64,000 nt of DNA from Chloroflexota bacterium (GCA_902810745.1 CADDYW010000008.1:1-64000), one strand, 5' to 3'; positions 22,912 to 63,569 are shown, counted from the stretch's first letter. Notes: generated by a model from the sequence alone, not told the origin. Numbers and translations: made by a program.

Positions 22912-23010
22912 GGCCATCCTCCTCGCTTCGCACTTCTTACTCGTTCGCCAGCTCGCATCCTAGCCCGGTTTCCGACGCGCTCCTGCGCCGAGATTCGACT
23001 GAGAGCGCGG

Positions 23011-23180
23011 GGCGGTACGAATGAGCTGCCAGCCGTTCAATCCCCTCTCCCTTTGGGAGAGGGTAAGGGTGAAGGTCGCAGACCGTGCGCCGCGGATCCA
23101 CGCCCTCACCCCGGCCCTCTCCCACGGGGAGAGGGAGACAGCCGTCTGCCCGATAGTTCAACCTTTCTGCTCGATGCTAA
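23011..23180. repeat. Dispersed palindromic repeat, copy A
   Basis: The element begins GGCGGTACGAATGAGC and contains the short palindrome CCCTCTCCC-TTT-GGGAGAGGG (about 23042-23063). A second CCCTCTCCC / GGGAGAGGG pair follows (about 23115-23135), and the element ends near CTTTCTGCTCGATGCTAAGAT. A shorter relative is at 45125-45226. CCCTCTCCC-type palindromes are widespread in environmental genomes; no transposase is nearby. Confidence 0.65.
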
Positions 23181-23380
23181 GATGGTGCCGGTCGAGCACA
23201 CCCAGTCTGCTGCATCAACGTTACCGACTGCGCTACCGAAGGTTACAGAAGGGTTACAGCAAAGAAATCTCCTGCCAGGCGACTTTCTTCCCGACCGTCC
23301 CCACTCGAAGGTCCACGCCGTCGGCGGATCGGCGGGGCCAGACGCGGTATGGATCGGCGACGTGACCCGGGCATCACCTC

Positions 23381-40605: not shown

Positions 40606-42102
40606 ATCGAGAGACGCAACTGGCCGGTCAAGGAGATACGTAACGGCCTCTGGAATGGGCTGTCGAATATCGTCGGGGCAGTCACCGGGCTGATCGGATC
40701 AATCCTGATCGTGCGGGACCTTAGCCCCGACGACTACGGCGCGTTCAGCTACTACGTCTGGGTCGCTGGGATCCTGGCCGCAGTCGGCACACTTGCCTTT
40801 CCCGAGGCCATCACGAAGATCACCTCCGAGCTTCGGGGGGAGAGAAGGCTGATCGAGGCGCGCGCCCTTGCACGCTGGGTCACGATAGGCATCCTGGGAG
40901 CGAATCTGCTGCTCAGCGTCATCGTGTGCATCGTCGCGCTCGACGGCTCACCGAGTCGGCGCCCATTTCTGCTCATCGTCGGCGCGCTCCTTGGGCCGAC
41001 GGCGCTTGCGTCGGTCCTGCGCTCCACCCTGATGGGCCGCGAGCGCTACCGACCGGTCGCGGTTGCCTCGCTTTCATCCTCGGTGATCCAGCTTATCTTG
41101 ATCGTAGCTAATTTCCTGGCACGACTAGGTGCACCCGGCTATGTTCTCGCCGTCCTGTCCAGCGGTCTGGTTCAGACCGCGGGATTCGCGGCAGCACTCG
41201 GTCGCGCAGATCTCTCGATCGGCGTGCCGCTGCGGCTTAGCTTCCCGTCGCGAACGACGTTGCGGCGTTATCTCGCGTTCGTCCTTCCAGCAACACTCGG
41301 GATACCTGTGTCGGTGATCGTCTGGGAGAGATCCGAAGTATTCTTCCTCGATCGTTTCTCCGGTCTGGTCCAGGTTGGCTACTACAATCTGGCCTATACC
41401 GTCTTCTCGATGGTTCTGATGCTTGGCTGGGCGCTGGTCAACGGCTTCTATCCCGCGATCTCCCGTGATTATGGCGCTGGCGAGTGGCATCGGATCCGGG
41501 AAAAACTCGGCCGCAGCTTCCTTTTTGGAGCACTGTACGCGGTTCCCCTCAGCTTTGGAGGATGGGCGACGATCGACGGGCTGATCTCCTTGCTGTATGG
41601 GGATAGGATGCTTCCCGCCGTCTCTGTCGCGCGCGTGCTGCTGATCGGACTGGTTCCAGGCGTGCTCTCCGGCGTTCTGGGAACTCTCATCCTGGCCACC
41701 GGTCGTGTCTGGCTCTCTCTGTCCGCGAGCATCCTGCTATCAGCGGTGAATATCGTCCTCGACCTCATCCTGATCCCACGCTACGCTGCCCTTGGTGCTG
41801 CTTTCGCCAGCACGATGTCGCAGCTTGTCTATGCGATGATCCTGTTCGCGATCGTAGCTCGCGTCTTCGGTATCGATCTCCCGTGGCGACGGTTACTCGG
41901 CATCGTCGTGTCTGGCGCTGTCACGACGTTCGTGCTCCCGGTCATGCTGGAGCTCTGGATTCCCGGAGCGCTGGGTCTCGTCAGCGCCATTGTCCTGAGT
42001 GCAGCCGTCTACATCGTCGTCGTCGGCCTCAGCGGCTACCTGCAGATCCTTCTCCCGGCGGAAGGTGCAGCAGATACAGATATCGTAAGGATGCGGGCGT
42101 GA
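40606..42102 (+). CDS. Wzx-type polysaccharide flippase (MOP superfamily), probable ATC start
   Basis: A 498-residue integral protein with about 14 hydrophobic helices, of the flippase family that moves undecaprenyl-linked repeat units outward. The usual first helix begins IRNGLWNGLSNIVGAV and runs into IVRDLSPDDYGAFSYY. No ATG, GTG or TTG is in frame between the upstream stop (40594) and this helix. ATC at 40606 has GAGGAAG at a correct distance and would give the normal N-terminus. A GTG at 40711 would delete helix 1. A sequencing error or true non-AUG start are both possible. Confidence 0.75.
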   Translation: MERRNWPVKEIRNGLWNGLSNIVGAVTGLIGSILIVRDLSPDDYGAFSYYVWVAGILAAVGTLAFPEAITKITSELRGERRLIEARALARWVTIGILGANLLLSVIVCIVALDGSPSRRPFLLIVGALLGPTALASVLRSTLMGRERYRPVAVASLSSSVIQLILIVANFLARLGAPGYVLAVLSSGLVQTAGFAAALGRADLSIGVPLRLSFPSRTTLRRYLAFVLPATLGIPVSVIVWERSEVFFLDRFSGLVQVGYYNLAYTVFSMVLMLGWALVNGFYPAISRDYGAGEWHRIREKLGRSFLFGALYAVPLSFGGWATIDGLISLLYGDRMLPAVSVARVLLIGLVPGVLSGVLGTLILATGRVWLSLSASILLSAVNIVLDLILIPRYAALGAAFASTMSQLVYAMILFAIVARVFGIDLPWRRLLGIVVSGAVTTFVLPVMLELWIPGALGLVSAIVLSAAVYIVVVGLSGYLQILLPAEGAADTDIVRMRA

Positions 42103-43334
42103 GGGTTCTTCATCTGCTCGGGGACCGCAAGCTGCCCCGTGACCCCGATGCCGAAGGAAGCAGCGGGATCGTCCGGGCCGTCCTCGAGCTCGCGCGCGCT
42201 CAGACGGCACTAGGGCACCAGGTGACCGTGGCGGCAACTGGCTACACATCCTGGAAAACGGAGTGGGAAGGCGTTCACCTGCGTGGGATGCCGATGCTGG
42301 CCTGGGCCCGGTGGTCGATTGGCGGAAAGACGATTGACTTCCGCCACCATCTGCCGTTGGTCTGGCTCACTCGACGGCAGACTTTCGACGTTGTGCACGG
42401 CCACTCCTATGGTTATCTGCGCTTCCTGCGTGCACGCGCGCGCATCGCGCACTTCCACGGAGACCCGTTCTTCAAGGGTCAGCCGGGCGAGAGTCTGGAT
42501 CTGAAGCCCGCGGATCTCGCGACCATCGCGCGAGTGACCGATGCTCAGATAACCGTCAACCAATGCTTCGCTCGCGAAATCGAGCGGCGACTGAACGGTC
42601 GCGCGCACGTGCGGGTCGTGCACAACGCCGTCGACGTAGCTCGCTTCGGCTCCGCGGAAAACCTGTCAGCTGCCCGCGTGCTACGGCAGACGTGGCGGGC
42701 GGAAGAGAGTGACGTCGTCTTTCTGTTCGCGGGCGCCATCGTGCCGGACAAAGGGGTCATCTTCCTCGCGCGGGCGTTCGCACGGGTGGCAGCACAGACC
42801 CGCTCCGCGCACCTGGTAATCGCCGGAGCGAGCGGGCTCTGGGGCAGGTCGACCGATCGTCAAACGCCCTTTGGGCGCTATCAGAGTGAGATCGAGCAGG
42901 TGCTTCGGCCAGCGATCGAATCCGGCCAGGTCCACCGCCTCGGGAAGGTTGCCTTTGCCGATATGCCAGCGGTGTACGCCGCCGCCGACGTGCTGATCCT
43001 GCCGTCGATCGTGCGCGAAGGGTGTCCCATGGTGATCCTCGAGGCGATGGCCGCGGGGCGTGCCGTGATCGCTACCGAAGTCGGCGGTGTTCCCGAGATC
43101 GTCGATGCGCGGACCTCCATCCTCGTCCCTCCAGGAGATGATGAGCAGCTTGCGACAGCAATGGGTGCGCTCCTTGGCGACCGTGCGCGCCTCACAAGTC
43201 TGGGCACGTCCGCGAGGCAGAAGGCAGCGGCGTTGTCCTGGGAGACCGCTGCGCTCCAGCTTGACACGATCTACCAGGAGATCGAGCGGCGGAAGTCCAG
43301 GCCTGAAGTTGCTCGATCGGGTTCCGAGCAATAG
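42099..43334 (+). CDS. GT4 family glycosyltransferase
   Basis: A 411-residue GT-B enzyme: RVLHLLGDRKLPRD at the start, GSSGIVRAVLELARAQ as the acceptor-domain Gly loop, then VFLFAGAIVPDKGVIFLARAF and the EX7E segment REGCPMVILEAMAAGRAVIAT. No membrane helix. The GTG start overlaps the flippase stop (GTGA), and AAGGA lies upstream. The long in-frame extension on its 5' side is an antisense-free shadow of the flippase and is not used. Confidence 0.85.
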   Translation: MRVLHLLGDRKLPRDPDAEGSSGIVRAVLELARAQTALGHQVTVAATGYTSWKTEWEGVHLRGMPMLAWARWSIGGKTIDFRHHLPLVWLTRRQTFDVVHGHSYGYLRFLRARARIAHFHGDPFFKGQPGESLDLKPADLATIARVTDAQITVNQCFAREIERRLNGRAHVRVVHNAVDVARFGSAENLSAARVLRQTWRAEESDVVFLFAGAIVPDKGVIFLARAFARVAAQTRSAHLVIAGASGLWGRSTDRQTPFGRYQSEIEQVLRPAIESGQVHRLGKVAFADMPAVYAAADVLILPSIVREGCPMVILEAMAAGRAVIATEVGGVPEIVDARTSILVPPGDDEQLATAMGALLGDRARLTSLGTSARQKAAALSWETAALQLDTIYQEIERRKSRPEVARSGSEQ

Positions 43335-43537: not shown

Positions 43538-44932
43538 GTGCAAGTTAACCAGCCCGTACCAGCACAGAGACCGGTCCAGATGATCACCGGCGGGGTGATC
43601 ATCGCCGTCGCTCTGGCCCTGAGCGGGTGGGCCGGCGCCCAGTACTCGCTCGTGCAGCCGCAGGATGTCCCGTCGGTCGACCCGAACTACGCGCTCGACG
43701 TCCAGACCTGGTGGGCACAGCATCCGCTGAATCCGGAGAACCCGTCTGGCATTCCGATTGGCGGAATTGGATCACGCCCGCCCGTGATCAACGTCCGGAC
43801 GCAGTTCGACGGCAATACGCAGGCAGCGATCAATGCGCTCCCCGAGAGCGGAGGAACGCTCTTGTTCCCACCCGGCGTATATCAGCCGTTCCAGATCATC
43901 GGGCGGAGTCACATCCACTTCATCTCCGATGGAGGAGCGACCATTGTCGGCCACAGCGGAATCTTCGCGTGTCCGCAGTCGACGAACTATACGAACTTCA
44001 ACCGGCTTGTCTTCACGCGCGACCCCGCGTCTCTCGACTGCTTCAGCCATCCGGTTCAGGACTTCTACTTCAAGAACCTGACGTTCGATGGTAATCATTC
44101 CGCGACTACCGCCGTGGATATGGCCGTCGCTCGGGATGTCGTCTTCGACCGGGTCACGTTCCAGAACTATCGACGGGTCGATGTGACCTACGAAATTGGT
44201 CTGATCAATGCCGACCGTGGATCTGACAACATCTGGTGCCGGGGCTGCCACTTCGTCGGAAGCCAGAGAATGGCCGTCTTCATGGACGGCGTTCATGGCG
44301 GAGGCATCGTCGACTCGCGATTCGAGAAAGACTTCTATGCGATGTGGCTCATGTTCGGTACGAATGACGACTTTACCATCGATGTCAATCACGATGGGAA
44401 ATATGACCTCCAGGAGCAGCGGACCAGCCAGTACATCGTCGTCGCCAACAACACGTTCTATGGCCCGATCTACGAGGGCCTGGACATGAACGGCATGCGC
44501 TCGCTGGTCGCAAACAACGTCGAAAAGGGTACTCTCTATTTCGACTTCGCTCGCTACACAGCCCGCTGCTCCCAGCGGGGCGGCGATGCCGGGCTCGTCT
44601 ACGTCGACGAGGGAAACGTCATCGTCGACAACCAGGTTGATCAGACTCCGATCTTCGTCAAGATGGACCAGAGTGCTGGTCGCCTCAACTGCCCGCACGA
44701 AAACTATGGACGGCTAGGACGGTATATCATTCGGAACAATGCCATTTTGAAGACCCCCCCAGACTTCCGTCTCGTGGCCGAGCTTGGCTCGATCATCGGA
44801 CCCAATTCAGTCGAGGGGAACTGCGTCAACACGTCTCGCTGCCGACCAGCGCCGACGCCAGTGCCCACCGCACCGTCGACTCCGTTTACAGAGCGCCTGC
44901 AAAACGCATTGATCCTGCGACGTCCCGAGTGA
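43538..44932 (+). CDS. Exported parallel beta-helix protein
   Basis: A 464-residue protein with an N-terminal hydrophobic export/anchor segment (MITGGVIIAVALALSGWAGA, about 15-34). Beta-helix repeats follow: GGTLLFPPGVYQP, IHFISDGGATI, FYFKNLTFDGNH, VVFDRVTFQNY, YIVVANNTFYGP, YIIRNNAIL. Pectate-lyase-like helices of this kind bind or cleave uronic-acid polymers. DVNHDGKYDL near 290 looks like a Ca2+-binding loop. The GTG start follows GGGGGAAG; ATG 43580 is an alternative. It may process or cap the secreted polymer. Confidence 0.65.
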   Translation: MQVNQPVPAQRPVQMITGGVIIAVALALSGWAGAQYSLVQPQDVPSVDPNYALDVQTWWAQHPLNPENPSGIPIGGIGSRPPVINVRTQFDGNTQAAINALPESGGTLLFPPGVYQPFQIIGRSHIHFISDGGATIVGHSGIFACPQSTNYTNFNRLVFTRDPASLDCFSHPVQDFYFKNLTFDGNHSATTAVDMAVARDVVFDRVTFQNYRRVDVTYEIGLINADRGSDNIWCRGCHFVGSQRMAVFMDGVHGGGIVDSRFEKDFYAMWLMFGTNDDFTIDVNHDGKYDLQEQRTSQYIVVANNTFYGPIYEGLDMNGMRSLVANNVEKGTLYFDFARYTARCSQRGGDAGLVYVDEGNVIVDNQVDQTPIFVKMDQSAGRLNCPHENYGRLGRYIIRNNAILKTPPDFRLVAELGSIIGPNSVEGNCVNTSRCRPAPTPVPTAPSTPFTERLQNALILRRPE

Positions 44933-45264
44933 ATCACCCATGTTCCCGAGCCGCTAGACGGTAACACCACTGCTCGCCATGCCGGCAGGCCACGACACTG
45001 CGCCGAGCTCTCGATCGCGCGTTCAGCACCTGATCGACCGGCGTCGGGGTTCCGCCAGAGGCCCCGCACCCTACGACGCGGGCACGGCGCGGATCGTAAC
45101 GCACCTCGGCCGCGCCTTAGAGCACGCGGCGGTATGAATGAGCCGGCAGCCTCCCAATCCCCTCTCCCTTTGGGAGAGGGAGATAGTCGCCTTCCCGGCG
45201 GCTCCGCCTTTTTGCTCGGTGCGTTAGATCGTGTGCTCACTCTAGATCCTATGCGGTACGACCA
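44933..45264. other. Intergenic region with dispersed repeat B
   Basis: No gene. The second half is the palindromic repeat B (45125-45226). This is one of the few long gaps inside the locus, and it stands exactly where the N-terminal domain of the following truncated glycosyltransferase would be expected. Confidence 0.5.
45125..45226. repeat. Dispersed palindromic repeat, copy B (shortened)
   Basis: It starts GCGGCGGTATGAATGAGC, contains AATCCCCTCTCCCTTTGGGAGAGGGAGA, whose core is CCCTCTCCC-TTT-GGGAGAGGG, and ends CTTTTTGCTCGGTGCGTTAGAT. It matches copy A (23011-23180) at both ends but lacks about 70 internal bases, as if the two inner palindromes had recombined. Confidence 0.65.
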
Positions 45265-45924
45265 GTGAAGAGGCTATCGAAGACCATTGTCATACCCGAG
45301 GCGCCGAGTCCGATCTTTCGGCCCCTGGACAGATCTGAGATTGCTCCTACCCTGAGGCGTTACGGTATCGATTTTCCGTACATTCTCTATGTCGGATCCA
45401 GCGAGGCACGGAAGAACCTGGCTCGCCTCCTCGACGCGTTCGCCAGATTACTGCGCGGCGGGAGCAGGACGAAGCTCGTCATTGCTGGAGCGCACGACCG
45501 ACAAGCAAGTCAGATCGCGCACACGATCGTGCACTTGGCGCTCGAGCACGACGTGCATTTCACCGGGCCGGTGCAGGACGAGGACCTCCCCGCCCTGTAC
45601 TGCGGCGCGGCTCTATTCGTGTTCCCCAGCCTGATCGAGGGGTTCGGTCTACCGGTGATCGAGGCGATGGCCTGCGGCACGCCGGTCGTCACGTCGAAGA
45701 CCGCCTCCCTACCCGAGATCACCGCGGATGCGGCACTCCTGGTCGACCCGCGCGATCCAGCTGCGCTCGCGGCCGCGATGCGCCAGGTTTTGGACGACCC
45801 GGTCCTCGCCCACGACCTGCGCCTACGCGGCCTGGCCCGAGCCCGAGAGTTCTCCTGGGAGCAGACCGCGCGACAAATGACCTCGATCTACGAGAAGGTT
45901 CTCGCGCAGAGGTCGGGGTGGTGA
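45265..45924 (+). CDS. GT4 glycosyltransferase, C-terminal domain only
   Basis: A 219-residue protein equal to the donor-binding half of a GT4 enzyme. It begins at the interdomain strand (KTIVIPEAPSPIFRP), followed by YILYVGSSEARKNLARLLDAF and the EX7E segment SLIEGFGLPVIEAMACGTPVVTS. The acceptor-binding N-terminal domain of about 170 residues is missing. The GTG start has no good ribosome-binding site. The missing half, of the same subfamily, is present at 50264-50737. It may be a pseudogene fragment or one subunit of a two-polypeptide enzyme. Confidence 0.75.
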   Translation: MKRLSKTIVIPEAPSPIFRPLDRSEIAPTLRRYGIDFPYILYVGSSEARKNLARLLDAFARLLRGGSRTKLVIAGAHDRQASQIAHTIVHLALEHDVHFTGPVQDEDLPALYCGAALFVFPSLIEGFGLPVIEAMACGTPVVTSKTASLPEITADAALLVDPRDPAALAAAMRQVLDDPVLAHDLRLRGLARAREFSWEQTARQMTSIYEKVLAQRSGW

Positions 45925-47060
45925 AGATCGCATTTCTTGACTTCGTTCTCGACCGGCGCCGCCCCGGGTCGAGCGGCCTCAGCGACATCGCCTGGAGTAT
46001 GGCACGGCACCTGGTTCGCGAAGGGCACGAAGCGCACGTCGTCGGTCCCTACCCCGCCCCGACGTGCACCTCACCTGGTGTTACCGTTCACAGTTTCGCG
46101 GTTCCCCCCATAGGATACCGCAATATCATCGGCCATTGCCTGATTGTGCTGAAGATGCGACTGATCGTACAACGTCTCCAGGGGCTGGATGCCATTCACG
46201 CGCCGGAGTATCTCTCCACGGGCATGATCGCTCCGTCGAGCAAGGTGCCGGTCACGCTGACGACGCCGGGGAATATCTATGAGCGAATAGCCCATGGCAA
46301 TCCGTATGACTGGTCGACAACTCTGGTTTATAAGCTCGCCGCGCGCTCGTCCGCCCGCTGGTGCACCCTCGTTCACGCGATCAGTTCCGACCAGGCGCGC
46401 TGGTGGCAGGCGATTGGTACATCTCCTGACCGTGTGAGCGTCTTCCCGCTCGGTGTGAGCTTCGAGCTCTTCCACAGGCGTCCGCGCGCACGAGCCGTGC
46501 TCGGATTACCTCCGAGCGATGCCATCATCCTCTACGTGGGGCGCCTTTCCCGAGAGAAGAATGTCCCAATCCTGCTCGAAGCCGTGGCGCGGCTCGCGGC
46601 GAAGAACCGCAACGTCCAGCTGCACCTCATCGGCACCGGCCCCGAACGCACGACCCTCGAGCAGCTGGCCCACGATCGGTCGATCGCTGATCTGGTCCAC
46701 TTCGACGGGCACATCCCTTTGGATCTCCTTCCGTACTGGTACTCGGCGTCCGACGTTTGTGTCCTTCCGTCGACGAGCGAACCTCTCGGTCGCGTCATGC
46801 TCGAGGCCATGGCCTGCGGAACAATCTTTGTTGGCGCCGCTGTCGGGGGAATCGTCGACCACGTGCACCACGGTATCAATGGCTACCTCGTCGCACCCGG
46901 CGATGCAGAACAGCTCTCTCGGATCCTCGACCAGGCCCTTCACGACGATGACGCCGCGCGCCGAATTCGCAAGCAAGCCGTGTGCTACGCCCGCGAGCAT
47001 TTCGATTGGACGGCCATCGTACGCCAGTACCAGACCGCCTTTGAGAGGGCGATTCGATGA
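45921..47060 (+). CDS. GT4 family glycosyltransferase
   Basis: A 379-residue GT-B enzyme: KIAFLDFVLDRRRPGSSGLSDIAWSMARHLVREGHEAHVVG at the start (read in parts), AIILYVGRLSREKNVPILLEAVA, and the EX7E segment SEPLGRVMLEAMACGTIFVGA, with Glu at both ends. It is complete, unlike its neighbour upstream. GTG 45921 overlaps the previous stop by four bases. Soluble. Confidence 0.85.
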   Translation: MKIAFLDFVLDRRRPGSSGLSDIAWSMARHLVREGHEAHVVGPYPAPTCTSPGVTVHSFAVPPIGYRNIIGHCLIVLKMRLIVQRLQGLDAIHAPEYLSTGMIAPSSKVPVTLTTPGNIYERIAHGNPYDWSTTLVYKLAARSSARWCTLVHAISSDQARWWQAIGTSPDRVSVFPLGVSFELFHRRPRARAVLGLPPSDAIILYVGRLSREKNVPILLEAVARLAAKNRNVQLHLIGTGPERTTLEQLAHDRSIADLVHFDGHIPLDLLPYWYSASDVCVLPSTSEPLGRVMLEAMACGTIFVGAAVGGIVDHVHHGINGYLVAPGDAEQLSRILDQALHDDDAARRIRKQAVCYAREHFDWTAIVRQYQTAFERAIR

Positions 47061-47812
47061 TGCGAAGCTGGTCAGCTCGTTTTTGCGCCTCGGGTCGCGC
47101 TGGTACCGACCAGCCGTCGACGGCCGTAGCGTGGCCTCTCGAATACCGGTTTGCCTTCGACCTCGCGGCAGCCACGCTCTTTGGACACGCCGCCTCGGTC
47201 CCGCGTACTGCCCTCCTGGCGTCGGCGCCCAGCTTCGTCTCCGAGTGGCTCCTACGGGCCGCGGATCCGCCCACGATCATCGCCGACTTCGAGCCCGTCG
47301 AGACCACGGTTCGACTGATCGCGGCGGCGCGAATGACGACGGCGCGCGTCGTCGAAGCCAAGGAGCTCGGCGACGCTCCCGGGCCGTACGGGCAGGCACT
47401 GACGGGCGTGCTGTGGGCCTCTCCTCGCTCTGAGACATGGCGTGCCCTCGTCGGGATGCTCGATGGAATGCTCGAGACGGGCGCACGCGCAGTGATCCTT
47501 ACTGCTGGCCCTCTCCGGCCCCTTCTTGCAGCTATTCGTCGTGGCTGGCGACCGGGCGAGCCCCGATACCCGATTCGCGACATCGACCGCGAGATCGGAC
47601 GTCGCGGTTTCTCCCTGGAAGAGACCTTTACGATTGGTGGACCCGAGGCGATTCGCTGGTCGACCCTGAGCCGCGTAGCTCGATTGCTCGGGCGCTCCGA
47701 TCTGATCGACCGCTACGAAGCCGGCTACCAGTTGGCTCTGGCGCCCCGGCGGGGCCACCGAGTGGGAGTAAATACGGTAATCGTCGCGCGTAAGGAGGGC
47801 ACCGCGACGTGA
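47057..47812 (+). CDS. Degenerate methyltransferase-like protein
   Basis: A 251-residue protein whose strand order resembles a class I methyltransferase. VLWASPRSETWRALVGMLDGMLETGARAVILTAGPL, read in pieces, looks like motifs IV-VI, and GFSLEETFTIGG like the last strands. The glycine-rich SAM loop is not evident, so catalysis is doubtful. ATG overlaps the previous stop (ATGA), and the next gene overlaps by GTGA. It may be a divergent enzyme or a structural relic. Confidence 0.45.
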   Translation: MMRSWSARFCASGRAGTDQPSTAVAWPLEYRFAFDLAAATLFGHAASVPRTALLASAPSFVSEWLLRAADPPTIIADFEPVETTVRLIAAARMTTARVVEAKELGDAPGPYGQALTGVLWASPRSETWRALVGMLDGMLETGARAVILTAGPLRPLLAAIRRGWRPGEPRYPIRDIDREIGRRGFSLEETFTIGGPEAIRWSTLSRVARLLGRSDLIDRYEAGYQLALAPRRGHRVGVNTVIVARKEGTAT

Positions 47813-49125
47813 TCCATGTCGTTCTCTCGACTGTGAGCCTGGCAGTGGCCCGACTTGAGTGCTGGCTCGAGTCCATGCGCACGCCAGGCGGCTACGGTGG
47901 TCCGGTGGTTCACTGGTGGCAGGATTGTCTCGCCTTCTGTGGCGCCGGGCTCGATTGGCGCTACGAGGGGATCATCGCCGGGTATCTTACGCTGTTCGAG
48001 CGGACCGGACAGGAGGCGTGGCTGGAGAAGGCACGGCGCGCCGGTCAAGACCTACTCCGTGGACAGCGCCCTGACGGTCACTACCAGTGCTCCTGCTTCG
48101 AGCTAAATCCTGGCATCGGCGGCACACCGCACGAAGCGGCGGCGGACATCGGCTTACTCCTCCTCGCGCGCGTCCTGCGAAAGCAACGACGTGACGACTG
48201 GGAGCCCTACCTCCGCGCGGCCGAGAGAAATCTGCGAGATTTCTACCTCCGGCGCCTCTGGTCCGAATCAGAGCAGAGATTTTATGACGGCGTGCAGCAG
48301 CCCTCCTTCGTGCCGAACAAATCGGCGACCCTGATCGAGGCGCTCTGCCTCGTGGCCGATCTCACGGGCAATGATGAGTGGCTGCATCGCTACGTTCGGC
48401 CAACCGCCAACGCGATCTTGGAGCATCAGGTGACGTCTCCGGGGAATCGGCTCGACGGAGCCATCGCTCAGAACTCCCTCGGACGCCAGACGATCCACAA
48501 GTACTTTCCTTACTACAACGCGCGCTGCGTGCCGGGACTGGTCCAGGCCTATGACCATCTCGGCGACACGCGTTACGTCGAGGCAGCACTCAAGGCCATG
48601 GAGTTCGTGGCGCGCCACCGCGACCCGCTTGGTCGTTTTCCCCAGGTGCTTTATGCAAACGGTACAGTTAACCGCTTTCCGCAATGGATCGCCGCCTGCG
48701 GGGACATTCTCCGGGCGGCAGATCTCCTTCGGCCGTACGGGCTGGACTTTCCCGCCGAACCGACGCTCCAGTGGATGCTGAACGCCCAGCTCCCAAACGG
48801 CGCATTCGCGGTCGCGAGCGGCTTCGCCAGCCAGATCTCCCAGGTCGAGCCCGGCTGCACTCCGGATGCTCGTGATCTGATGCCAGTCGTCGGCTGGAAC
48901 GACAAGATCTTTCGCTACCTCGCGGGCAAGGTCGCGGAGCTTCCGACCGACGTCGACGGTCCCGAGCCATTCGAGACTGCCTGCTCGTGGCGGGGAAGAG
49001 AAGCTCTCTTCGCCGAGGATCCGCATTGTCTGCGGATCCTGGCTCGAGGACGAGAGCGGGGCGACCTCTATTTCTGGCACAAGGGAGCCGCGTGGGCTAC
49101 CGTTTCGCCGATGGGAAGCGCATGA
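47809..49125 (+). CDS. (alpha/alpha)6-barrel glycosidase-like protein
   Basis: A 438-residue protein rich in paired helices with Trp/Tyr/Asp turns (GGPVVHWWQDCLAF, DWRYEGIIAGYLTLFERTG, GTPHEAAADIGLLLLAR, YFPYYNARCVPGLVQAYDHLGDTRY), as in six-hairpin glycosidases and epimerases. There is no signal peptide, so a cytoplasmic role is likely, perhaps on lipid-linked or nucleotide-linked sugar. I cannot assign a GH family. GTG start; translationally coupled to both neighbours. Confidence 0.55.
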   Translation: MIHVVLSTVSLAVARLECWLESMRTPGGYGGPVVHWWQDCLAFCGAGLDWRYEGIIAGYLTLFERTGQEAWLEKARRAGQDLLRGQRPDGHYQCSCFELNPGIGGTPHEAAADIGLLLLARVLRKQRRDDWEPYLRAAERNLRDFYLRRLWSESEQRFYDGVQQPSFVPNKSATLIEALCLVADLTGNDEWLHRYVRPTANAILEHQVTSPGNRLDGAIAQNSLGRQTIHKYFPYYNARCVPGLVQAYDHLGDTRYVEAALKAMEFVARHRDPLGRFPQVLYANGTVNRFPQWIAACGDILRAADLLRPYGLDFPAEPTLQWMLNAQLPNGAFAVASGFASQISQVEPGCTPDARDLMPVVGWNDKIFRYLAGKVAELPTDVDGPEPFETACSWRGREALFAEDPHCLRILARGRERGDLYFWHKGAAWATVSPMGSA

Positions 49126-50264
49126 GACAAAACAGCCGTGAGGGGGCAGCGCCCTGGCATCTGGTCGTCCTGCTCGGGCTGCTCGCCAGTGGGGTCTACA
49201 ACCTGTGGCGGTGGCGAAGCGATCGCTGCCTGGTTGCCAAGCACCTGCGCCGGTCGAGTCCGCCGCCTCCAGACCAGTGGCGCTCGGCGCCGCGGGTGAG
49301 CGTGCTGGTCGCAGCGTGGAACGAAGCCGATCATATTGATCGCCACGTCCGGAGCTTCGTCGGGCTCCGCTATCCCAACCGGGAGCTGATCCTCTGTGCA
49401 GGAGGTACCGACGATACCTACGCGCGGGCTGCACACTGGACGGGTCCGCAGGTGAAAGTGCTGGAACAATGTCCGGGCGAGGGAAAGCAGCGGGCATTGC
49501 GCCGCTGCTTCGCCATCGCCAATGGCGAAGTGATCTACCTCACCGACGCTGATTGCGTGCTTGACGACGATTCGTTCGAGCGTCTCGTGTTTCCGATTGC
49601 CCAGGGGTTGGAATCAGCCTGCTCCGGTAGCTCTCGTCCGTACTCGGAGCTGTCCCGACATCCTTTCGTCGTCTCGCAGATCGCCTCGCAGTGCTACAGC
49701 GCGCTCCACTCCCCGCTCTACGCGGCAGGTTTACTTGGCCGGAACTGTGCAGTTACCAGGGAACTGCTCCGGCAGTCGGGTGGGCTCGACGCACCTGCGC
49801 CGACCGGGACGGACTACGTTCTCGCCAAGTGTCTGGCCAGGGCAGGCGCCCGGATCCGCCAGATTCCCGACAGTCGGGTCCAGACGGATTATCCGACAAC
49901 GGCGTCCGAGTACCTTCGTCAACAGCGGCGCTGGCTCCGCAATGTGGTCGCGCGCGGCAAGGAGTACGGCGCGATCGACGAGGTACGGAGCTCGCTATTG
50001 ACGTCTGGTGTCGGCGTCGCGATGATCACCCTTCCCTTTCTGGCGCTCGTCATCGGACCGATGGCGCTCGGCCTGTGGGTCCTCCTTCTCGGGCATGCCT
50101 TCCTGGGGCGGATTCGCTACATGTTCGTGGCCCGAGCCTATCAGGGTCTGCCGATCACTCCTGGCCAGATCGGCATGATCGTGCCGCTATTGATTCTCGA
50201 CTTCGTGGCCTGGGCGCGACCGCTTCTCGATTACGTTTTCAAGAAAGGGCAGGACACCTGGTAA
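49122..50264 (+). CDS. Membrane GT2 glycosyltransferase, processive-synthase-like
   Basis: A 380-residue enzyme with one N-terminal helix (WHLVVLLGLLASGVYNLW) and about two to three C-terminal helices. The GT-A domain has RVSVLVAAWNEADHI, YLTDADCVLDDD (the DxD), TGTDYVLA, and QQRRWLRN, equivalent to the QxxRW motif of cellulose and hyaluronan synthases. It may polymerise or add sugars while extruding the chain, but it is shorter than BcsA. ATG overlaps the previous stop. Confidence 0.75.
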   Translation: MRQNSREGAAPWHLVVLLGLLASGVYNLWRWRSDRCLVAKHLRRSSPPPPDQWRSAPRVSVLVAAWNEADHIDRHVRSFVGLRYPNRELILCAGGTDDTYARAAHWTGPQVKVLEQCPGEGKQRALRRCFAIANGEVIYLTDADCVLDDDSFERLVFPIAQGLESACSGSSRPYSELSRHPFVVSQIASQCYSALHSPLYAAGLLGRNCAVTRELLRQSGGLDAPAPTGTDYVLAKCLARAGARIRQIPDSRVQTDYPTTASEYLRQQRRWLRNVVARGKEYGAIDEVRSSLLTSGVGVAMITLPFLALVIGPMALGLWVLLLGHAFLGRIRYMFVARAYQGLPITPGQIGMIVPLLILDFVAWARPLLDYVFKKGQDTW

Positions 50265-50737
50265 TGCGCGTGGCGCTGATCGCGAAGCCGGACGCGGCTG
50301 GTACGGGGGTGGGACGTTATGCCACGGAGCTGGAGCGGGCACTGCGGGCATTGGGGCACCAGGTGGTCGTGGTCCATCCGGTCGTTCCAGTTCCCGTATG
50401 GCTGGCGCGTCTACTCCGTCGCTGGCTTGGGATCGACATCGAGGCATTCCTCCAGAATTACCCGGTCTGGATTCGCTACCCCGACGCCGACGTCTATCAC
50501 CTCACCAGTCAGAACCTGGCTTCGATCATGCTCTTCCACCGCCCGCCCGGCAAGACCGTGGTGACCGTTCACGACATTATTCCCTGGCTGGTTCGGCACA
50601 ATCCCGAGCTACGCGTCTATCGGCACTGGTTCGACGCGATGTTCGATTACCTGACCCTGCGTGGCCTCAAACGCGCGGACGCGCTGGTGGCAGTCTCGGA
50701 GTTTACCGCGCAGTCGCTGATCGGGGTCGTCGAATAG
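50264..50737 (+). CDS. GT4 glycosyltransferase, N-terminal domain only
   Basis: A 157-residue protein equal to the acceptor-binding half of a GT4 enzyme: MRVALIAKPDAAGTGVGRYATELERALRALGH (in parts) with the Gly loop, KTVVTVHDIIPWLV, and RADALVAVSEFTAQSLI just before the stop. The frame ends exactly at the interdomain hinge; the donor domain is absent downstream. The matching half is at 45265-45924. Its ATG overlaps the previous stop (TAATG). Probably half of a formerly intact gene, or one chain of a split enzyme. Confidence 0.75.
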   Translation: MRVALIAKPDAAGTGVGRYATELERALRALGHQVVVVHPVVPVPVWLARLLRRWLGIDIEAFLQNYPVWIRYPDADVYHLTSQNLASIMLFHRPPGKTVVTVHDIIPWLVRHNPELRVYRHWFDAMFDYLTLRGLKRADALVAVSEFTAQSLIGVVE

Positions 50738-50960: not shown

Positions 50961-53642
50961 ATGAGCCACGAATCGACGGATCCAGGCCCGTTGGCGAAAG
51001 AAGGCTGCGAACGCTGTGGAGCGCCCTGGGATCCCGGGCTGCCGAGCGATGCGCCCTGCCCGGTGTGCTCCCGCTCGGGACACCCGGCACGGCTCTTTTC
51101 GCACCTGCGCCCGGACGATCGGCAATCACTCCTCGCGGCCGTCGGGGGCATTGGAGCAGTCATCTGCGCCTTCATGGTCGTGGTGCTCCTCGAGGCTGTC
51201 TCGAGCTTGCCGCGCCCCCCTACGACTGAGGCCCCGGTGGCGACCCCGGCTCCCGGATCCTCTCCCGCGACCTGGGCAGGCACGATCAATAAGGTTCACG
51301 TCTGGGTAACCGTCGTGCCGCGCGGACACACGATCTCCACGGACGCGCGCCAGCACGAGCCCTGGTGGCGGTGGGGCAACACCTCAACAGATGCTTACCT
51401 GTTTGCCGCGGGCAGCCCCGACCGCGTTCTGCTGATTCTCACCTTCGATACCCGCGCAGACGGATCTCCCGAGGCACGGTTCTATCTGAATCAGATGGGA
51501 GCCAAGCCGGTGGATTACTCTCTCGACGGGACTACACTGACCGTCCGCACCGCTGGCGGACGTCCGACCCTGGTGATGCACCCGGACCACGGGGAGTGGC
51601 TCGTCGATGGTCAGGCAAACTATGATCTGACACTGCTCCTCTACAATTCGATTGCCGGCGTACCGCCGGCTCCGTCGCCAGAGGGTGACGTCCCCGATCA
51701 GGTGATCCACGTCGGAGGTCAGCACCCGGCCATCCCCGATTGGCAAACCCAGCAAGTGCTGCGTGATCCCTTCCCGAATCGCGGTTACTCGCGCTTTGCC
51801 GCGTCGTTGCGCATGGTTGATAGCCCACCGTTCAAGGTCGCCGCGCCGGTCTTTCCAGATTTCCCGTACTTTGGGATCGGTGATGGAAAGATCAACTGGT
51901 TCGAGGAGAATCCAAATCCTCTCTATCTCGACGCGACCCGACCGGAGTTCCACATCTTCTCGTTCACCGGATTCGAAACCGGGGGCTCGTACGAAATCTC
52001 GTCGCTCTCGCGGCCACCCCGTCCCGACTTCGAGGCTCCCTTTGCGTTTTACAATTTCGATCCGACCACGCGTCACGCCCAGCTGATCGTGCGTGCCGAG
52101 AGCTACCCGGCTGGCGACCCATTCGGACCTGCACCCACCAGCCGCCAGCGTTCCAGCTTCCGCTACTCCTGGACCGGCCCGGCCGTCGACCAGTGGCAGT
52201 TTTCGCTGCAGGTTGGCGGCTCCTTCCCGTACAGCCAGCAGATCGACATCGGCGGTATCAAGCTCTGGGGCGTCCCGCCGGGCGAGCTTCCCACCTGGGT
52301 CCTATCGAAAGCCTGGCCGGTCGTGACATTCGTCGAGGCGGTGAACGGGTACCCGGGCTCCGAGGGGATCTACTTTTACACCGTTCAGGGCCCAGGCCCG
52401 TGGCCCTGGCTCACCGGAGCGCGCGACCGTCCGCCGGATTACCTCGGAGAGCCGTATCTACTCCCGGACGTCAGGCTCTCTGACGCCAGCGGCGAAGGGC
52501 TGCCGCCCAGCTTCCGTGGAGAGTACATCGCCGATAACACCCACCGGATCGGGCTCTACCTGAGCCCGATCGACAATCGGGTTCACCTCGTCGACGCTCA
52601 GGGCGGGGTTTGGAACCTGGGGAGCTCACTCGTCCTGCGCGAGCACAACCTCGACGGGGGGGCATACGTCGATGCCTGGACGCTCGAGCGGGTGCCCCGA
52701 CCGGCGGCAGCTGGTGATCCGCCAAGGGCGCTGCCAGGCACGGTCGAGCAGGCCCTCTATGCGCTGGGCAGGTATGTTATCTATTCCGGCCCGGAGGGCG
52801 TCAAAATCCATGAGCTCGCCGATCTTCCGGCAAATCTGCCCCTGTCCCCTCCGTCGGATGTGGCGAGCTGGCGACAGTTCAATCAGCAAACGGCGCCATA
52901 TCTGAAGCAGCAGCGGGATCCGCGGAACCTCGCAAGCTGGCTGACCGCCCTTCCCGGCAAGACGTTGACAATCGAGGGTGCACAGGTCTCGGATGTACGG
53001 TCCACGCAAGGCGGCTACCGCTTTGAGCTTGCCCTGCAACACGGCTTTCGAGCTCACGGCGATGCCGTATTACCGAGCTGGCAGAGCCTTCAGCCAGGAC
53101 GTTGGCTTGTTCGGCTCGATCAAGATATCACGGTGCAGTCCCTGTCGGCGTCCGGCGTCGTTCTGTCTCTGGGTATGATCCCCGATCAGTACCCGCAGAC
53201 CGGCGAACCAGTACAGCTGCGTATCGAGGTGACGGCAACCGGCCTCGCCGATATTCCCGACGCTACGCTACGAATACGCGCGCAGCACGGCACCAGTTCC
53301 GATGACCTCGCCGACGAAACCATCGACGTGCTCGCCGGTCGCCCTGCCAGGACAGCGTTGATCTGGCAGCCAAGCACCTCCGGCCGGTGGAATGTCGAGG
53401 TGCTGCTCGAACGGCCGGGTGGAGAGATCCTCGCCCAAGCCTCGCGTCCGGTGACCGTCTCCAACGGTCCGGCGACGGAAGAGAGAACAGTCCTGGCCCT
53501 GTCGGCCCCTAGTCGCTGGCAGGTCGGGGCACTCGCGCTTCTGATCGTGGTGCCCGTGATCATCTGGGTTCTCCTGCTGCCAATCCTGGGCGATCGTGGC
53601 CCGAGAGAGCCATCGCCGCGGGCCACGCTCAAGGGCGATTGA
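50961..53642 (+). CDS. Large bitopic surface protein with N-terminal zinc ribbon
   Basis: An 893-residue protein of unknown family. The first 45 residues contain CERCGAPWD and CPVCSRSG, a probable cytoplasmic zinc ribbon. A transmembrane helix follows (about 60-85), then more than 700 extracytoplasmic residues of beta-rich sequence. These include repeated Tyr/Trp/Gly-rich strands and a CARDB/Ig-like segment near YPQTGEPVQLRIEVTATGL. A second helix (LALLIVVPVIIWVLLLPIL) precedes a short basic tail. ATG 50961 is chosen because GGGGAG lies 4 nt upstream. It may anchor or sense the surface polymer. Confidence 0.6.
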   Translation: MSHESTDPGPLAKEGCERCGAPWDPGLPSDAPCPVCSRSGHPARLFSHLRPDDRQSLLAAVGGIGAVICAFMVVVLLEAVSSLPRPPTTEAPVATPAPGSSPATWAGTINKVHVWVTVVPRGHTISTDARQHEPWWRWGNTSTDAYLFAAGSPDRVLLILTFDTRADGSPEARFYLNQMGAKPVDYSLDGTTLTVRTAGGRPTLVMHPDHGEWLVDGQANYDLTLLLYNSIAGVPPAPSPEGDVPDQVIHVGGQHPAIPDWQTQQVLRDPFPNRGYSRFAASLRMVDSPPFKVAAPVFPDFPYFGIGDGKINWFEENPNPLYLDATRPEFHIFSFTGFETGGSYEISSLSRPPRPDFEAPFAFYNFDPTTRHAQLIVRAESYPAGDPFGPAPTSRQRSSFRYSWTGPAVDQWQFSLQVGGSFPYSQQIDIGGIKLWGVPPGELPTWVLSKAWPVVTFVEAVNGYPGSEGIYFYTVQGPGPWPWLTGARDRPPDYLGEPYLLPDVRLSDASGEGLPPSFRGEYIADNTHRIGLYLSPIDNRVHLVDAQGGVWNLGSSLVLREHNLDGGAYVDAWTLERVPRPAAAGDPPRALPGTVEQALYALGRYVIYSGPEGVKIHELADLPANLPLSPPSDVASWRQFNQQTAPYLKQQRDPRNLASWLTALPGKTLTIEGAQVSDVRSTQGGYRFELALQHGFRAHGDAVLPSWQSLQPGRWLVRLDQDITVQSLSASGVVLSLGMIPDQYPQTGEPVQLRIEVTATGLADIPDATLRIRAQHGTSSDDLADETIDVLAGRPARTALIWQPSTSGRWNVEVLLERPGGEILAQASRPVTVSNGPATEERTVLALSAPSRWQVGALALLIVVPVIIWVLLLPILGDRGPREPSPRATLKGD

Positions 53643-60476: not shown

Positions 60477-61869
60477 AAGCGGTCGCGGCGCTCGGGTGAC
60501 GGTCGCAGGGAGACGAATTCCGACGAAGGAGGTAACGTTCCACCCACACTCGTTCGGCGATCCCGATGGAAGACTGTTCCAGTGGAAAGACGCTCTCTAC
60601 CGTGGAATCAGCCATCGACAGGAGCCGTTGTTCTCGCGTCTGTTCGACGAGGGGCTGATCAGCGCGCTCGTCGAGCGCGGCTTGCTCGTCGAGTCCGAGG
60701 TAGCGCCGCTGATGCTGGACGGCTACGCCATGGTTCTTCGACATCGGTTGATTCCCTTCGTCTCGTATCCCGAGGAGTGGCCACCCGCGATGCTACGGGA
60801 CGCCGCGATCGCCATTCTGGATCTCGCCGTCGAGCTTGCCGTCCGGGGCCTGAGTCTGAAAGACGGGCATCCCTGGAATGTCGTCTTCGACGCGTGCCAC
60901 CCCGTTTACGTGGACATCACCTCCATCGTACCGCTCGACGATCAGCCGGTCTGGCCCGCGTACGACTCCTTCTGCCGATTCGCGTTCCGGCCGCTTCTCC
61001 TCATGGCTCGTGGCCACGAGCGAATCGCCCGGCGTCTCCTTCCTGAGCACGAGGGCGTCAGTGAATCGGAGCTCCGCGCGCTCACCCGTGGCTCGGGCCT
61101 GCCGCTCATCGGCCTGGCGCTGCGGCGGGTTGCGCGAGGCTACCAGACGATGCGCGTCCAGTCCATTGGCCGCCTGCGGTACCGCGAGCCTGATCCGCGG
61201 CAGCGTATCGCCTTCCTCAATCAAACACGCAAACAGATCGAAGCGATCACCTTTCCCGGCTCTCCTGACACCTTTCTCGAGGCGCTGAACCCGTTCGCGC
61301 ACGATAGCTGGGCTCTGAAACGTCTCGAGCTCGAAAGAATCCTGGACGAGATCCACCCCGAATCGGTTGTGGACGTCGGAAGCGAGGCAGGGTGGGCCGC
61401 GAGAACCGCGGCACGCGCGGGAAGTAAGGTCATCGCCCTCTGTACGGACTCGCGCAGTGCCACGCAGCTCTACTACGACGCGCGGGGTAGTTCCCTCCCC
61501 ATTCTCCCGCTGGTGATGGACTTCACCGACCCAACCCCCTCGCGGGGAATCGACGGTCACTGGGCTATCGCCGCGACTGAGAGACTACGCGGTGATCTCG
61601 TGGTGGCCTCGAGCAGGGTAGTCCGAAGGGCATGGGAGCGTGGCCTCACGGTCGATCAGATCGTCAACGGTCTCGCCGCCTTCGCACGCCGGTGGATACT
61701 GGTCGAGATCGGACCGGTCGAGCGTCACGATGGGCCGCTGCCGGTAACCGGCGACCGCCCGCCGTACACTGCCGACTCCTTCGCCGAATCGCTGCGCCGG
61801 CGCTTCAGTCGCGTCGATTCCCTGCCAACGCACCAGGAGGGACGGGTACACCTTCTATGCGCCACCTGA
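60442..61869 (+). CDS. Two-domain protein: kinase-like fold plus methyltransferase-like domain
   Basis: A 475-residue protein. The N-terminal 200 residues show an LKDGHPWNVVFD segment followed by PVYVDITSIVP. This resembles the catalytic-loop (D-x-x-x-x-N) and DFG regions of kinase/aminoglycoside-phosphotransferase folds. The C-terminal part has SVVDVGSEAGWAARTAARAGSKVIALCTDS, a SAM-binding Rossmann start. It may phosphorylate and methylate a glycan end, the known way some ABC-exported chains are terminated; here this is inference. It is placed after the exporter genes. Confidence 0.5.
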   Translation: MARQSIAQAAAESGRGARVTVAGRRIPTKEVTFHPHSFGDPDGRLFQWKDALYRGISHRQEPLFSRLFDEGLISALVERGLLVESEVAPLMLDGYAMVLRHRLIPFVSYPEEWPPAMLRDAAIAILDLAVELAVRGLSLKDGHPWNVVFDACHPVYVDITSIVPLDDQPVWPAYDSFCRFAFRPLLLMARGHERIARRLLPEHEGVSESELRALTRGSGLPLIGLALRRVARGYQTMRVQSIGRLRYREPDPRQRIAFLNQTRKQIEAITFPGSPDTFLEALNPFAHDSWALKRLELERILDEIHPESVVDVGSEAGWAARTAARAGSKVIALCTDSRSATQLYYDARGSSLPILPLVMDFTDPTPSRGIDGHWAIAATERLRGDLVVASSRVVRRAWERGLTVDQIVNGLAAFARRWILVEIGPVERHDGPLPVTGDRPPYTADSFAESLRRRFSRVDSLPTHQEGRVHLLCAT

Positions 61870-63569
61870 ACGACACGACGGTGCAGGTCAATCGATCGCT
61901 CGCTGGGGCGGCTCCTGGTGAACCCGATGCCAGACCGCTTGTCTCGGCGATCATCATCTTCTGGAATGCCGAACAGTTCATCCAGGAGGCGATCGAAAGC
62001 GTCATTGCCCAGACGTACGATCGCTGGGAGCTCATCCTGGTTGACGACGGCTCGACCGACGCATCCTCCGAGATCGCGACCCGCTACGCCCAGCGCTACC
62101 CGGATCGCGTGCGATACGTCGAGCACGAGGGGCACCAGAACCGCGGGATGAGCGCGTCGCGCAACCTGGGCATTCAAAGAAGCCACGGCAAGTACATCGC
62201 CTTTCTCGACGCCGACGACGTCTGGCTGCCCACGACCCTTGCCGAGCAGGTCGCCTTGCTCGAAGCTCACCCGGAGGCGGCGATGGTGTACGGTCCGGTC
62301 GAGCGCTGGCATAGCTGGACCGGGGAGCCAGGGGATATCGCACGCGACCACGTCGAAAAGCTCGGCCTCGAGCCGAACCGATTAGTCAAGCCGCCGACAC
62401 TGCTCGCCCTCTTCCTGCGAAATGAAGGTGCCAAGCCCTCTGGCCCGATGGTGCGCCGCGACGTCGTCGAGCGAGTCGGGGGGTTCGAGGAAACGTTCCG
62501 AGGCCGATACGAGGACCAGGTGTTTTGCGCCAAGATCTGCCTGGAATATCCCGTCTACGTCGCGGACCGCTGCTGGTACCGCTATCGCCGACATCCCGCC
62601 TCCTGCTGCTCGGCCGAGCGCGACGGTCAGGGCGACGTCGCGTATCGTGCCGCCAGGCTAAAGTTCCTACGCTGGCTCGCGGGTTACCTCGGGGATCGAC
62701 AGGTTCAGCACCCCGACGTCCGCCGAGCACTCCGAAACGAGTTTTGGAGGATTCGCGCTCCGAGGATCTATCATCTCCTCGAGCTCGTCTATCGTCTCAC
62801 CGTGCAATCGAGCCGTCTGGCGCGGAGCGGCGCGCGAAGGATGATTCCAGCCCCGATCCGGGCCTGGCTCTGGGCACGCTGGCGCGGAAACGAGTACGTT
62901 CCGCCGGTTGGCTGGGTACGCTTCGGAAGCTTGCGGCGCCTTACTCCCATCAGTCGCCGCTGGGGTTTCGATCGCGGTCTGCCCGTCGATCGGTACTACA
63001 TCGAGCGCTTCCTCGACGCCCATCGCGCGGATATCCGCGGACACGTGCTCGAGATCGGCGACGATACCTATACGACCCGGTTCGGAGGCAGCCGGGTGAC
63101 GAAGAGCGACGTGCTCCACGTTACCGATCACACGCCGAAGACGACGATCCTGGCGGACCTCACCTGCGCCGACGAGATCTCAAGCGACATCTTCGACTGC
63201 ATCATCCTCACTCAGACACTGCCCTTCATCTACGACGTACGGCTCGCGGTGCAGACGATCTTTCGCATCCTGAAGCCCGGTGGAGTAGTGCTGGCAACCC
63301 TGCCGGGGATCACACGGATCAGCCGTTCAGACATGACGCGGTGGGGACATTACTGGAGCTTTACGAGCCTCTCGGCGCGACGTCTGTTCGAAGAAGCGTT
63401 CCCGCGCCCCGCTATCGCCTGTGAAGCTCACGGGAATGTTCTGGCCGCGACCGCGTTCCTGTATGGGCTTACCGCTGGCGAGCTGAGCACGCGCGAGCTT
63501 GACGAACACGATCCCGATTACGAGCTCCTGATCACCGTCCGCGCCGTCAAACCCGAGCAGGTGCCGTGA
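61857..63569 (+). CDS. Fusion of GT2 glycosyltransferase and SAM methyltransferase
   Basis: A 570-residue protein. Residues about 28-260 form a GT-A domain (SAIIIFWNAEQFIQEAIES, ILVDDGSTDASSEI, AFLDADDVWLP). After a basic linker, residues about 390-560 form a methyltransferase-like domain (VLEIGDDTYTTRFG, ILADLTCADEIS, FDCIILTQTLPFIYD, FRILKPGGVVLATLPG). The GD-D loop is atypical for SAM binding. The ATG overlaps the previous gene by 13 nt and its ribosome-binding site is weak. Fusion suggests transfer and modification of one sugar. Confidence 0.75.
   Translation: MRHLNDTTVQVNRSLAGAAPGEPDARPLVSAIIIFWNAEQFIQEAIESVIAQTYDRWELILVDDGSTDASSEIATRYAQRYPDRVRYVEHEGHQNRGMSASRNLGIQRSHGKYIAFLDADDVWLPTTLAEQVALLEAHPEAAMVYGPVERWHSWTGEPGDIARDHVEKLGLEPNRLVKPPTLLALFLRNEGAKPSGPMVRRDVVERVGGFEETFRGRYEDQVFCAKICLEYPVYVADRCWYRYRRHPASCCSAERDGQGDVAYRAARLKFLRWLAGYLGDRQVQHPDVRRALRNEFWRIRAPRIYHLLELVYRLTVQSSRLARSGARRMIPAPIRAWLWARWRGNEYVPPVGWVRFGSLRRLTPISRRWGFDRGLPVDRYYIERFLDAHRADIRGHVLEIGDDTYTTRFGGSRVTKSDVLHVTDHTPKTTILADLTCADEISSDIFDCIILTQTLPFIYDVRLAVQTIFRILKPGGVVLATLPGITRISRSDMTRWGHYWSFTSLSARRLFEEAFPRPAIACEAHGNVLAATAFLYGLTAGELSTRELDEHDPDYELLITVRAVKPEQVP

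Follow-up and report, generated by a model that had tools for sequence, protein, structure and literature searches.

A 64,000-nucleotide stretch of a Chloroflexota draft genome (the window, taken from the start of a 101-kb contig) carries a polysaccharide gene cluster in which the two domains of family 4 glycosyltransferases (GT4s) are encoded as separate proteins, a donor domain at 45265-45924 and an acceptor domain at 50264-50737. We propose that these half-proteins have different histories: the acceptor half would be a conserved free protein that is completed in trans, and the donor half a repeat-associated truncation. Judging from gene sequences and their relatives, all of them from Chloroflexota, we put the probability of this reading at roughly one half. 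GT-B enzymes bind the acceptor with their N-terminal domain and the nucleotide sugar with their C-terminal domain, and the active site lies between the two; in GT4 enzymes, the helix that ends the C-terminal domain packs against the N-terminal (acceptor) domain. We know of no described GT4 whose acceptor domain is a separate, conserved protein, and a limited literature search for single-domain or split GT4 proteins, with subscription papers mostly outside its scope, returned nothing relevant.

The proposal draws on two GT4 subfamilies, called A and B here. One lineage of subfamily B would have lost its donor domain, and its acceptor domain would have been kept as a gene of its own in an operon with genes for a toroid protein and a family 2 glycosyltransferase (GT2). 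This acceptor half would bind a sugar acceptor, probably a lipid-linked one, and a donor domain supplied in trans would complete it, as Alg13 completes Alg14. Because the residues conserved in fused GT4s are kept, acceptor binding combined with a donor domain in trans would be the most likely mechanism. The donor half would stem from another GT4, a member of subfamily A whose acceptor domain was lost at a junction associated with a repeat.

The acceptor half and its free-standing relatives

The acceptor half is the last gene of a three-gene module:

47809..49125, + strand: 438-aa protein, probably an (alpha/alpha) toroid; first gene of the module (weak Pfam matches)
49125..50264, + strand: GT2 glycosyltransferase directly upstream of the acceptor half and overlapping it; member of the conserved module (Pfam)
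50264..50737, + strand: GT4 acceptor (N-terminal Rossmann) domain alone, 157 aa, subfamily B (Pfam, clade, AlphaFold2)

A first-pass annotation of the window had described 50264-50737 as an acceptor domain alone up to the hinge, and our analysis agrees. The open reading frame (ORF) starts with an ATG that overlaps the GT2 stop codon (TAATG), matches only acceptor-domain models in Pfam (PF13439, E=5e-13; PF13579, E=1e-9), and ends after the last helix preceding the hinge (VSEFTAQSLIGVVE). No NCBIfam model matches it, and no donor-domain remnant was found downstream. The AlphaFold model has a mean predicted local distance difference test score (pLDDT) of 91.6; its best matches in the PDB are the GT-B glycosyltransferases BshA, GlgA, Gtf3, and GtfC, with query-normalised TM-scores of 0.50-0.55 for the five matches with E < 0.001. 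A PDB search by sequence profile gave no convincing match. The protein keeps 22 of 25 conserved columns and carries the glycine-rich N-terminal loop (TGVGRY) and an HDxxP motif (VHDIIPW).

Among 37 subfamily-B homologues, 33 are fused GT4s of 330-407 aa, the shortest of them cut by a contig end. The remaining four end at the hinge: the protein of the window (157 aa), L053 (158 aa), L054 (171 aa), and L059, of which 113 aa are present and the start is missing at a contig end. These four form a clade with support of 86/89 in a tree of the acceptor domain alone and of 93/98, in 95% of bootstraps, when the toroid protein, GT2, and acceptor domain are concatenated. A first acceptor-domain tree that included very long rows gave only 64/85, and support rose after long branches were dropped and sequences were added; the value of 86/89 is somewhat favoured because the dropped rows were our choice, and the concatenated tree provides a more independent check. 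Of 21-27 conserved columns, 1-4 are missing from stand-alone members, which lies within the range of the fused ones (0-6). Related forms of the loop and of HDxxP occur in L053 and L054, and HDIIPW is present in L059; the tryptophan of this motif is found in all four stand-alone members, whereas fused members mostly have tyrosine at that site.

For the closest pair, L053 and L059, the ratio of nonsynonymous to synonymous substitutions (dN/dS) is about 0.10 over 100 codons, a rough value because dS is high (1.7). The four-genome clade together with this low ratio argues for the half-GT4 as a genuine gene product in these genomes. In each of the three relatives, an unrelated reading frame begins within a few nucleotides of the stop at the hinge: L053 has a sulfotransferase-like frame there (read by eye), L054 a flippase-like gene, and L059 another GT4. 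The module itself is widespread in subfamily B, with its order kept in other genomes, and fused members such as L055 (Candidatus Chloroploca asiatica), L022, and L057 have the same module and the same acceptor domain (about 50-57% identity); they carry a donor domain in the chain, whereas the window's protein ends at the hinge. L054 has the same module, then its flippase-like gene, and then a protein that by eye resembles the 893-aa protein downstream of the acceptor half in the window, so an assembly error at the join on the acceptor-half side is unlikely. A search of 396 genomes from the class of G402 and 158 from the class of G389 for further stand-alone acceptor halves found none beyond the one already known. 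Taken together, the acceptor half appears to be a conserved stand-alone gene downstream of the toroid-protein and GT2 module rather than a fresh break, a conclusion that these comparisons support well.

Separate descent of the donor half

The features bearing on the donor half are the following:

22996..23187, no strand: second, longer repeat copy with two palindromes (blastn, palindrome search)
45113..45233, no strand: copy of a palindromic repeat resembling repetitive extragenic palindromic (REP) elements, ending 32 nt before the start of the donor half (blastn, palindrome search)
45265..45924, + strand: GT4 donor (C-terminal) domain alone, 219 aa, subfamily A (Pfam, tree, AlphaFold2)
45918..47060, + strand: intact GT4 with both domains, its start overlapping the end of the donor half (Pfam)

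The description of 45265-45924 as a donor domain alone, beginning at the hinge, also held. A GTG start precedes the hinge strand by a few residues (VKRLSKTIVIPEAPSPIF), Pfam matches are to donor-domain models only (PF00534, E=3e-37; PF13692, E=1e-35), and the NCBIfam matches are to GT4-type models. The AlphaFold model (mean pLDDT 86.0) has a disordered hinge segment (residues 1-16) and retains the C-terminal helix. The protein keeps 26 of 28 conserved columns (L152I and G174A are the changes) along with the E-x7-E motif (EGFGLPVIE) and the phosphate-binding RK. Neither a clear ribosome-binding site nor an acceptor-domain remnant was found upstream. By Pfam, neither half ORF holds both GT4 domains in one chain, and codon use in both resembles that of their neighbours (mean log-odds of 0.13 and 0.22 in frame and of -0.12 to -0.20 in the other frames).

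As had been noted, the C-terminal half lies 4.3 kb upstream of the N-terminal half: the ORFs are on the same strand with 4.34 kb between them, and their lengths total 376 aa. The accompanying claim, that they jointly make up one normal GT4 of about 375 residues, did not survive, because the best matches of the two halves fall into different GT4 subfamilies, A for the donor half and B for the acceptor half. The donor half best matches the subfamily-A GT4s G009:C64 (59%), a paralogue on its own contig (58% over the donor domain), G003:C279 (56%), and G017:C223 (52%), whose acceptor domains are quite unlike that of the window. The acceptor half matches subfamily-B GT4s, mostly at 50-63%, in G017, G003, Chloroploca, and others. 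In a tree of 60 donor domains, the donor half falls within A, and all 24 B donor domains lie beyond a branch with 100/97 support. Profile scores agree with this split: 285 bits (A) vs. 222 bits (B) for the donor half, and 198 bits (B) vs. 32 bits (A) for the acceptor half. The halves are therefore not pieces of one gene, and the suggestion that a rearrangement broke a single GT4 gene is contradicted by the donor tree and the profile scores alike. We looked elsewhere in the genome for the missing counterparts. No orthologue of a subfamily-B donor domain was found, the best match in the genome being the donor half itself (47%), and the search for the subfamily-A acceptor domain turned up a single close match, the intact paralogue at C8:70462.

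Two simple schemes were rejected on these grounds. The donor-domain tree rules out one gene that was simply split. A circular permutation of the cluster, prompted by a locus (L060) where a homologue of the GT4 at 45918 comes directly after a fused subfamily-B GT4, is ruled out since the donor half does not belong to subfamily B.

The donor half looks like a truncated paralogue of another GT4 gene. The same contig carries an intact subfamily-A paralogue (C8:70462-71553, L151) about 25 kb downstream, outside the window, and the repeat copy 32 nt from the 5' end is as expected of a truncated paralogue. The subfamily-A GT4s with the same donor domain (G009:C64, C8:70462-71553, and G266:C12; 54-59% identity) have an intact acceptor domain and a preceding gene for a conserved membrane protein, whereas the donor half of the window has neither. 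By blastn, the repeat at 45113-45233 matches 22996-23063 (85% over 68 nt) and 23115-23187 (76% over 74 nt), and its core palindrome (CCCTCTCCCTTTGGGAGAGGG core) has 6 matches vs. 0 in shuffles. The copy at 45113 resembles the left flank of the first palindrome of 22996-23187 fused to the right flank of the second. A search for repeats linking the breakpoints of the two halves to each other gave nothing above chance-like matches.

Possible pairing of the halves and competing explanations

L053 comes from G400, a genome in which free halves of both kinds also occur together. There, the closest match to the donor half of the window (55%) belongs to the same subclade and is likewise a free donor half beginning at the hinge:

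L148 (G400:C518), 1717-2570: free donor half behind a membrane-protein gene

At five other loci, the same membrane-protein gene stands before an intact subfamily-A GT4. In G400, the donor half lies directly behind it, with its first ATG about 137 nt from the membrane-protein stop, so the acceptor domain was apparently lost in situ; the upstream remnant amounts to a few hinge residues (3 bits). By eye, a possible frameshifted trace of the last helix of the acceptor domain can also be made out. In a listing of about 150 PF00534 matches from G000 (the genome of the window), G400, G401, and G402, only the donor halves of the window and of G400 were clear free donor domains not lying at a contig end, and all other listed frames shorter than 300 aa sit at contig ends; this listing was judged by open-frame length, and long frames may hide more. 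It also includes, in the genome of the window, a possibly broken GT4 with a 314-aa open frame and a partial acceptor domain (L163, G000:C60:2600-5600). By a post hoc estimate, the chance that the best match in G400 would be its only clear free donor domain is about 1 in 40. Overall, free acceptor and donor halves occur together in two of four genomes, with the donor domain cut by a contig end in one and no close donor half in the other. This co-occurrence is suggestive only of a link between the two kinds of half.

Within the window's genome, the strongest candidate for a partner of the acceptor half is the donor half at 45265, because it lies in the same gene cluster and keeps its sugar-nucleotide site and its C-terminal helix. 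It is about as likely, however, that the donor half is a mere remnant, and several further observations weigh against our proposal. The acceptor-half clade has good support, though under the 95 bootstrap mark, the end point varies among the four stand-alone halves (before or after the hinge strand), and each of the four genomes that carry them is a draft assembly. In G401, the genome of L054, nothing closely related to the donor half was found, and in G402 a contig end cuts the related donor domain. The two known free donor halves form no clade of their own: that of the window is sister to the intact GT4 G009:C64 (99/76) and not to the G400 donor half, which makes a repeated origin of free donor halves probable. 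The window's donor half also has a long end branch (0.60 vs. 0.17 for the intact sister), which fits relaxed or changed constraint.

A more specific explanation is that the two halves at 50264 and 45265 form a dedicated two-subunit GT4, an Alg14/Alg13-like heterodimer drawn from two subfamilies. Their location in one cluster on one strand, the conserved residues kept in both, the retained C-terminal helix, and the donor-half stop overlapping the next GT4 start, which suggests translation, are consistent with such an enzyme, as is G400 with both free halves, where the closest match is the only clear free donor domain among about 40. Nevertheless, the donor half adjoins a repeat, lacks a clear ribosome-binding site, has a long branch next to an intact GT4, and is absent from G401, and the G400 donor half looks like an in-place truncation behind its membrane-protein gene; we regard the dedicated pair as rather unlikely. 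The two-chain enzyme raised in the first-pass annotation gained partial support from the clade of free acceptor halves in four Chloroflexota genomes, with the donor half at 45265 only a candidate partner. The chief alternative to catalysis in trans is that the acceptor half works with no GT4 donor domain, for example as an acceptor-binding or membrane-anchoring accessory of the upstream GT2. The GT2 gene overlaps the acceptor half in the window and almost adjoins it in L053, and G401 has no known close donor half. GT2 is also adjacent in several fused relatives, however, and the acceptor half keeps the conserved columns of fused enzymes, including the GxGRY loop and the HDIIP motif, all of which should drift in the absence of a donor domain closing over them; an accessory role is in our judgment unlikely.

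Polysaccharide gene clusters are often rearranged, and both halves might instead be functionless fragments dying in the course of such turnover. The repeat beside the donor half and the partial acceptor domain in the open frame of L163 would fit this. Normal codon use in both halves argues against it, as do the intact frames, the single clade, and the low dN/dS of the acceptor half, and we consider decay of both halves quite unlikely. Least probable by far is one GT4 gene cut at the hinge, with its halves re-ordered by rearrangement or assembly error. The halves are complementary in total length and both are cut near the hinge, and in L060 a fused subfamily-B GT4 directly precedes the homologue of the GT4 at 45918. 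Against this stand the different subfamilies of the halves, the stand-alone acceptor halves of three other genomes, and the conserved order of the module on the acceptor side.

Two-subunit GT-B enzymes are known from Alg13/Alg14 and EpsE/EpsF, which have fused and reversed-order fused relatives (PMC8993221). In Alg13/Alg14, a eukaryotic N-acetylglucosamine (GlcNAc) transferase of GT1, and in its bacterial and archaeal EpsE/EpsF relatives, the membrane acceptor half and the donor half are separate proteins. The window and G400 resemble them in encoding the halves as separate genes. Unlike those GT1 enzymes, which are distantly related to GT28/MurG, the halves of the window match GT4 models, and they come from different GT4 subfamilies and are only a candidate pair. 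If the free acceptor half does cooperate with a donor domain encoded separately, a very large family could uncouple the choice of acceptor from the choice of sugar, and the old question of how GT-B domain swaps originate would become directly testable. If the enzyme drew on two subfamilies, acceptor and donor specificity would be recombinable with no fusion gene.

Other genes of the cluster

The cluster extends on both sides of the two halves:

40711..42102, + strand: Wzx/MurJ-like flippase, same polysaccharide cluster (PF03023 / PF01554)
42090..43334, + strand: intact GT4 glycosyltransferase after the flippase (Pfam)
43538..44932, + strand: 464-aa protein upstream of the donor half, weakly rhamnogalacturonidase / polygalacturonase-like (weak NCBIfam matches)
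47057..47812, + strand: 251-aa protein of no recognised family, after the GT4 at 45918 and before the toroid protein (no Pfam match)
50961..53642, + strand: 893-aa protein of no recognised family, after the acceptor half (homologues in related clusters)

The weak Pfam matches of the 438-aa protein are to GH127, GlcNAc 2-epimerase, and C5-epimerase, and full-length homologues that are 45-60% identical lie beside subfamily-B acceptor domains across the phylum. No family model names this probable toroid protein, which is usually found just before a GT2 and a subfamily-B GT4; where the flanking sequence is long enough, most relatives have GT2 upstream of the subfamily-B acceptor domain. Conservation of the 893-aa protein, at about 23-28%, extends to several polysaccharide clusters of Chloroflexota, where it lies next to flippases and GT4s; homologues occur at L024, L025, L029, L030, L060, and L064. 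Its homologue directly follows that of the GT4 at 42090..43334 in L025 and L030; the two are apart in the window. A homologue of the 464-aa protein sits upstream of the flippase in L030. Further along the window, a 645-aa protein (61632-63569) combines GT2 and methyltransferase domains in one chain.

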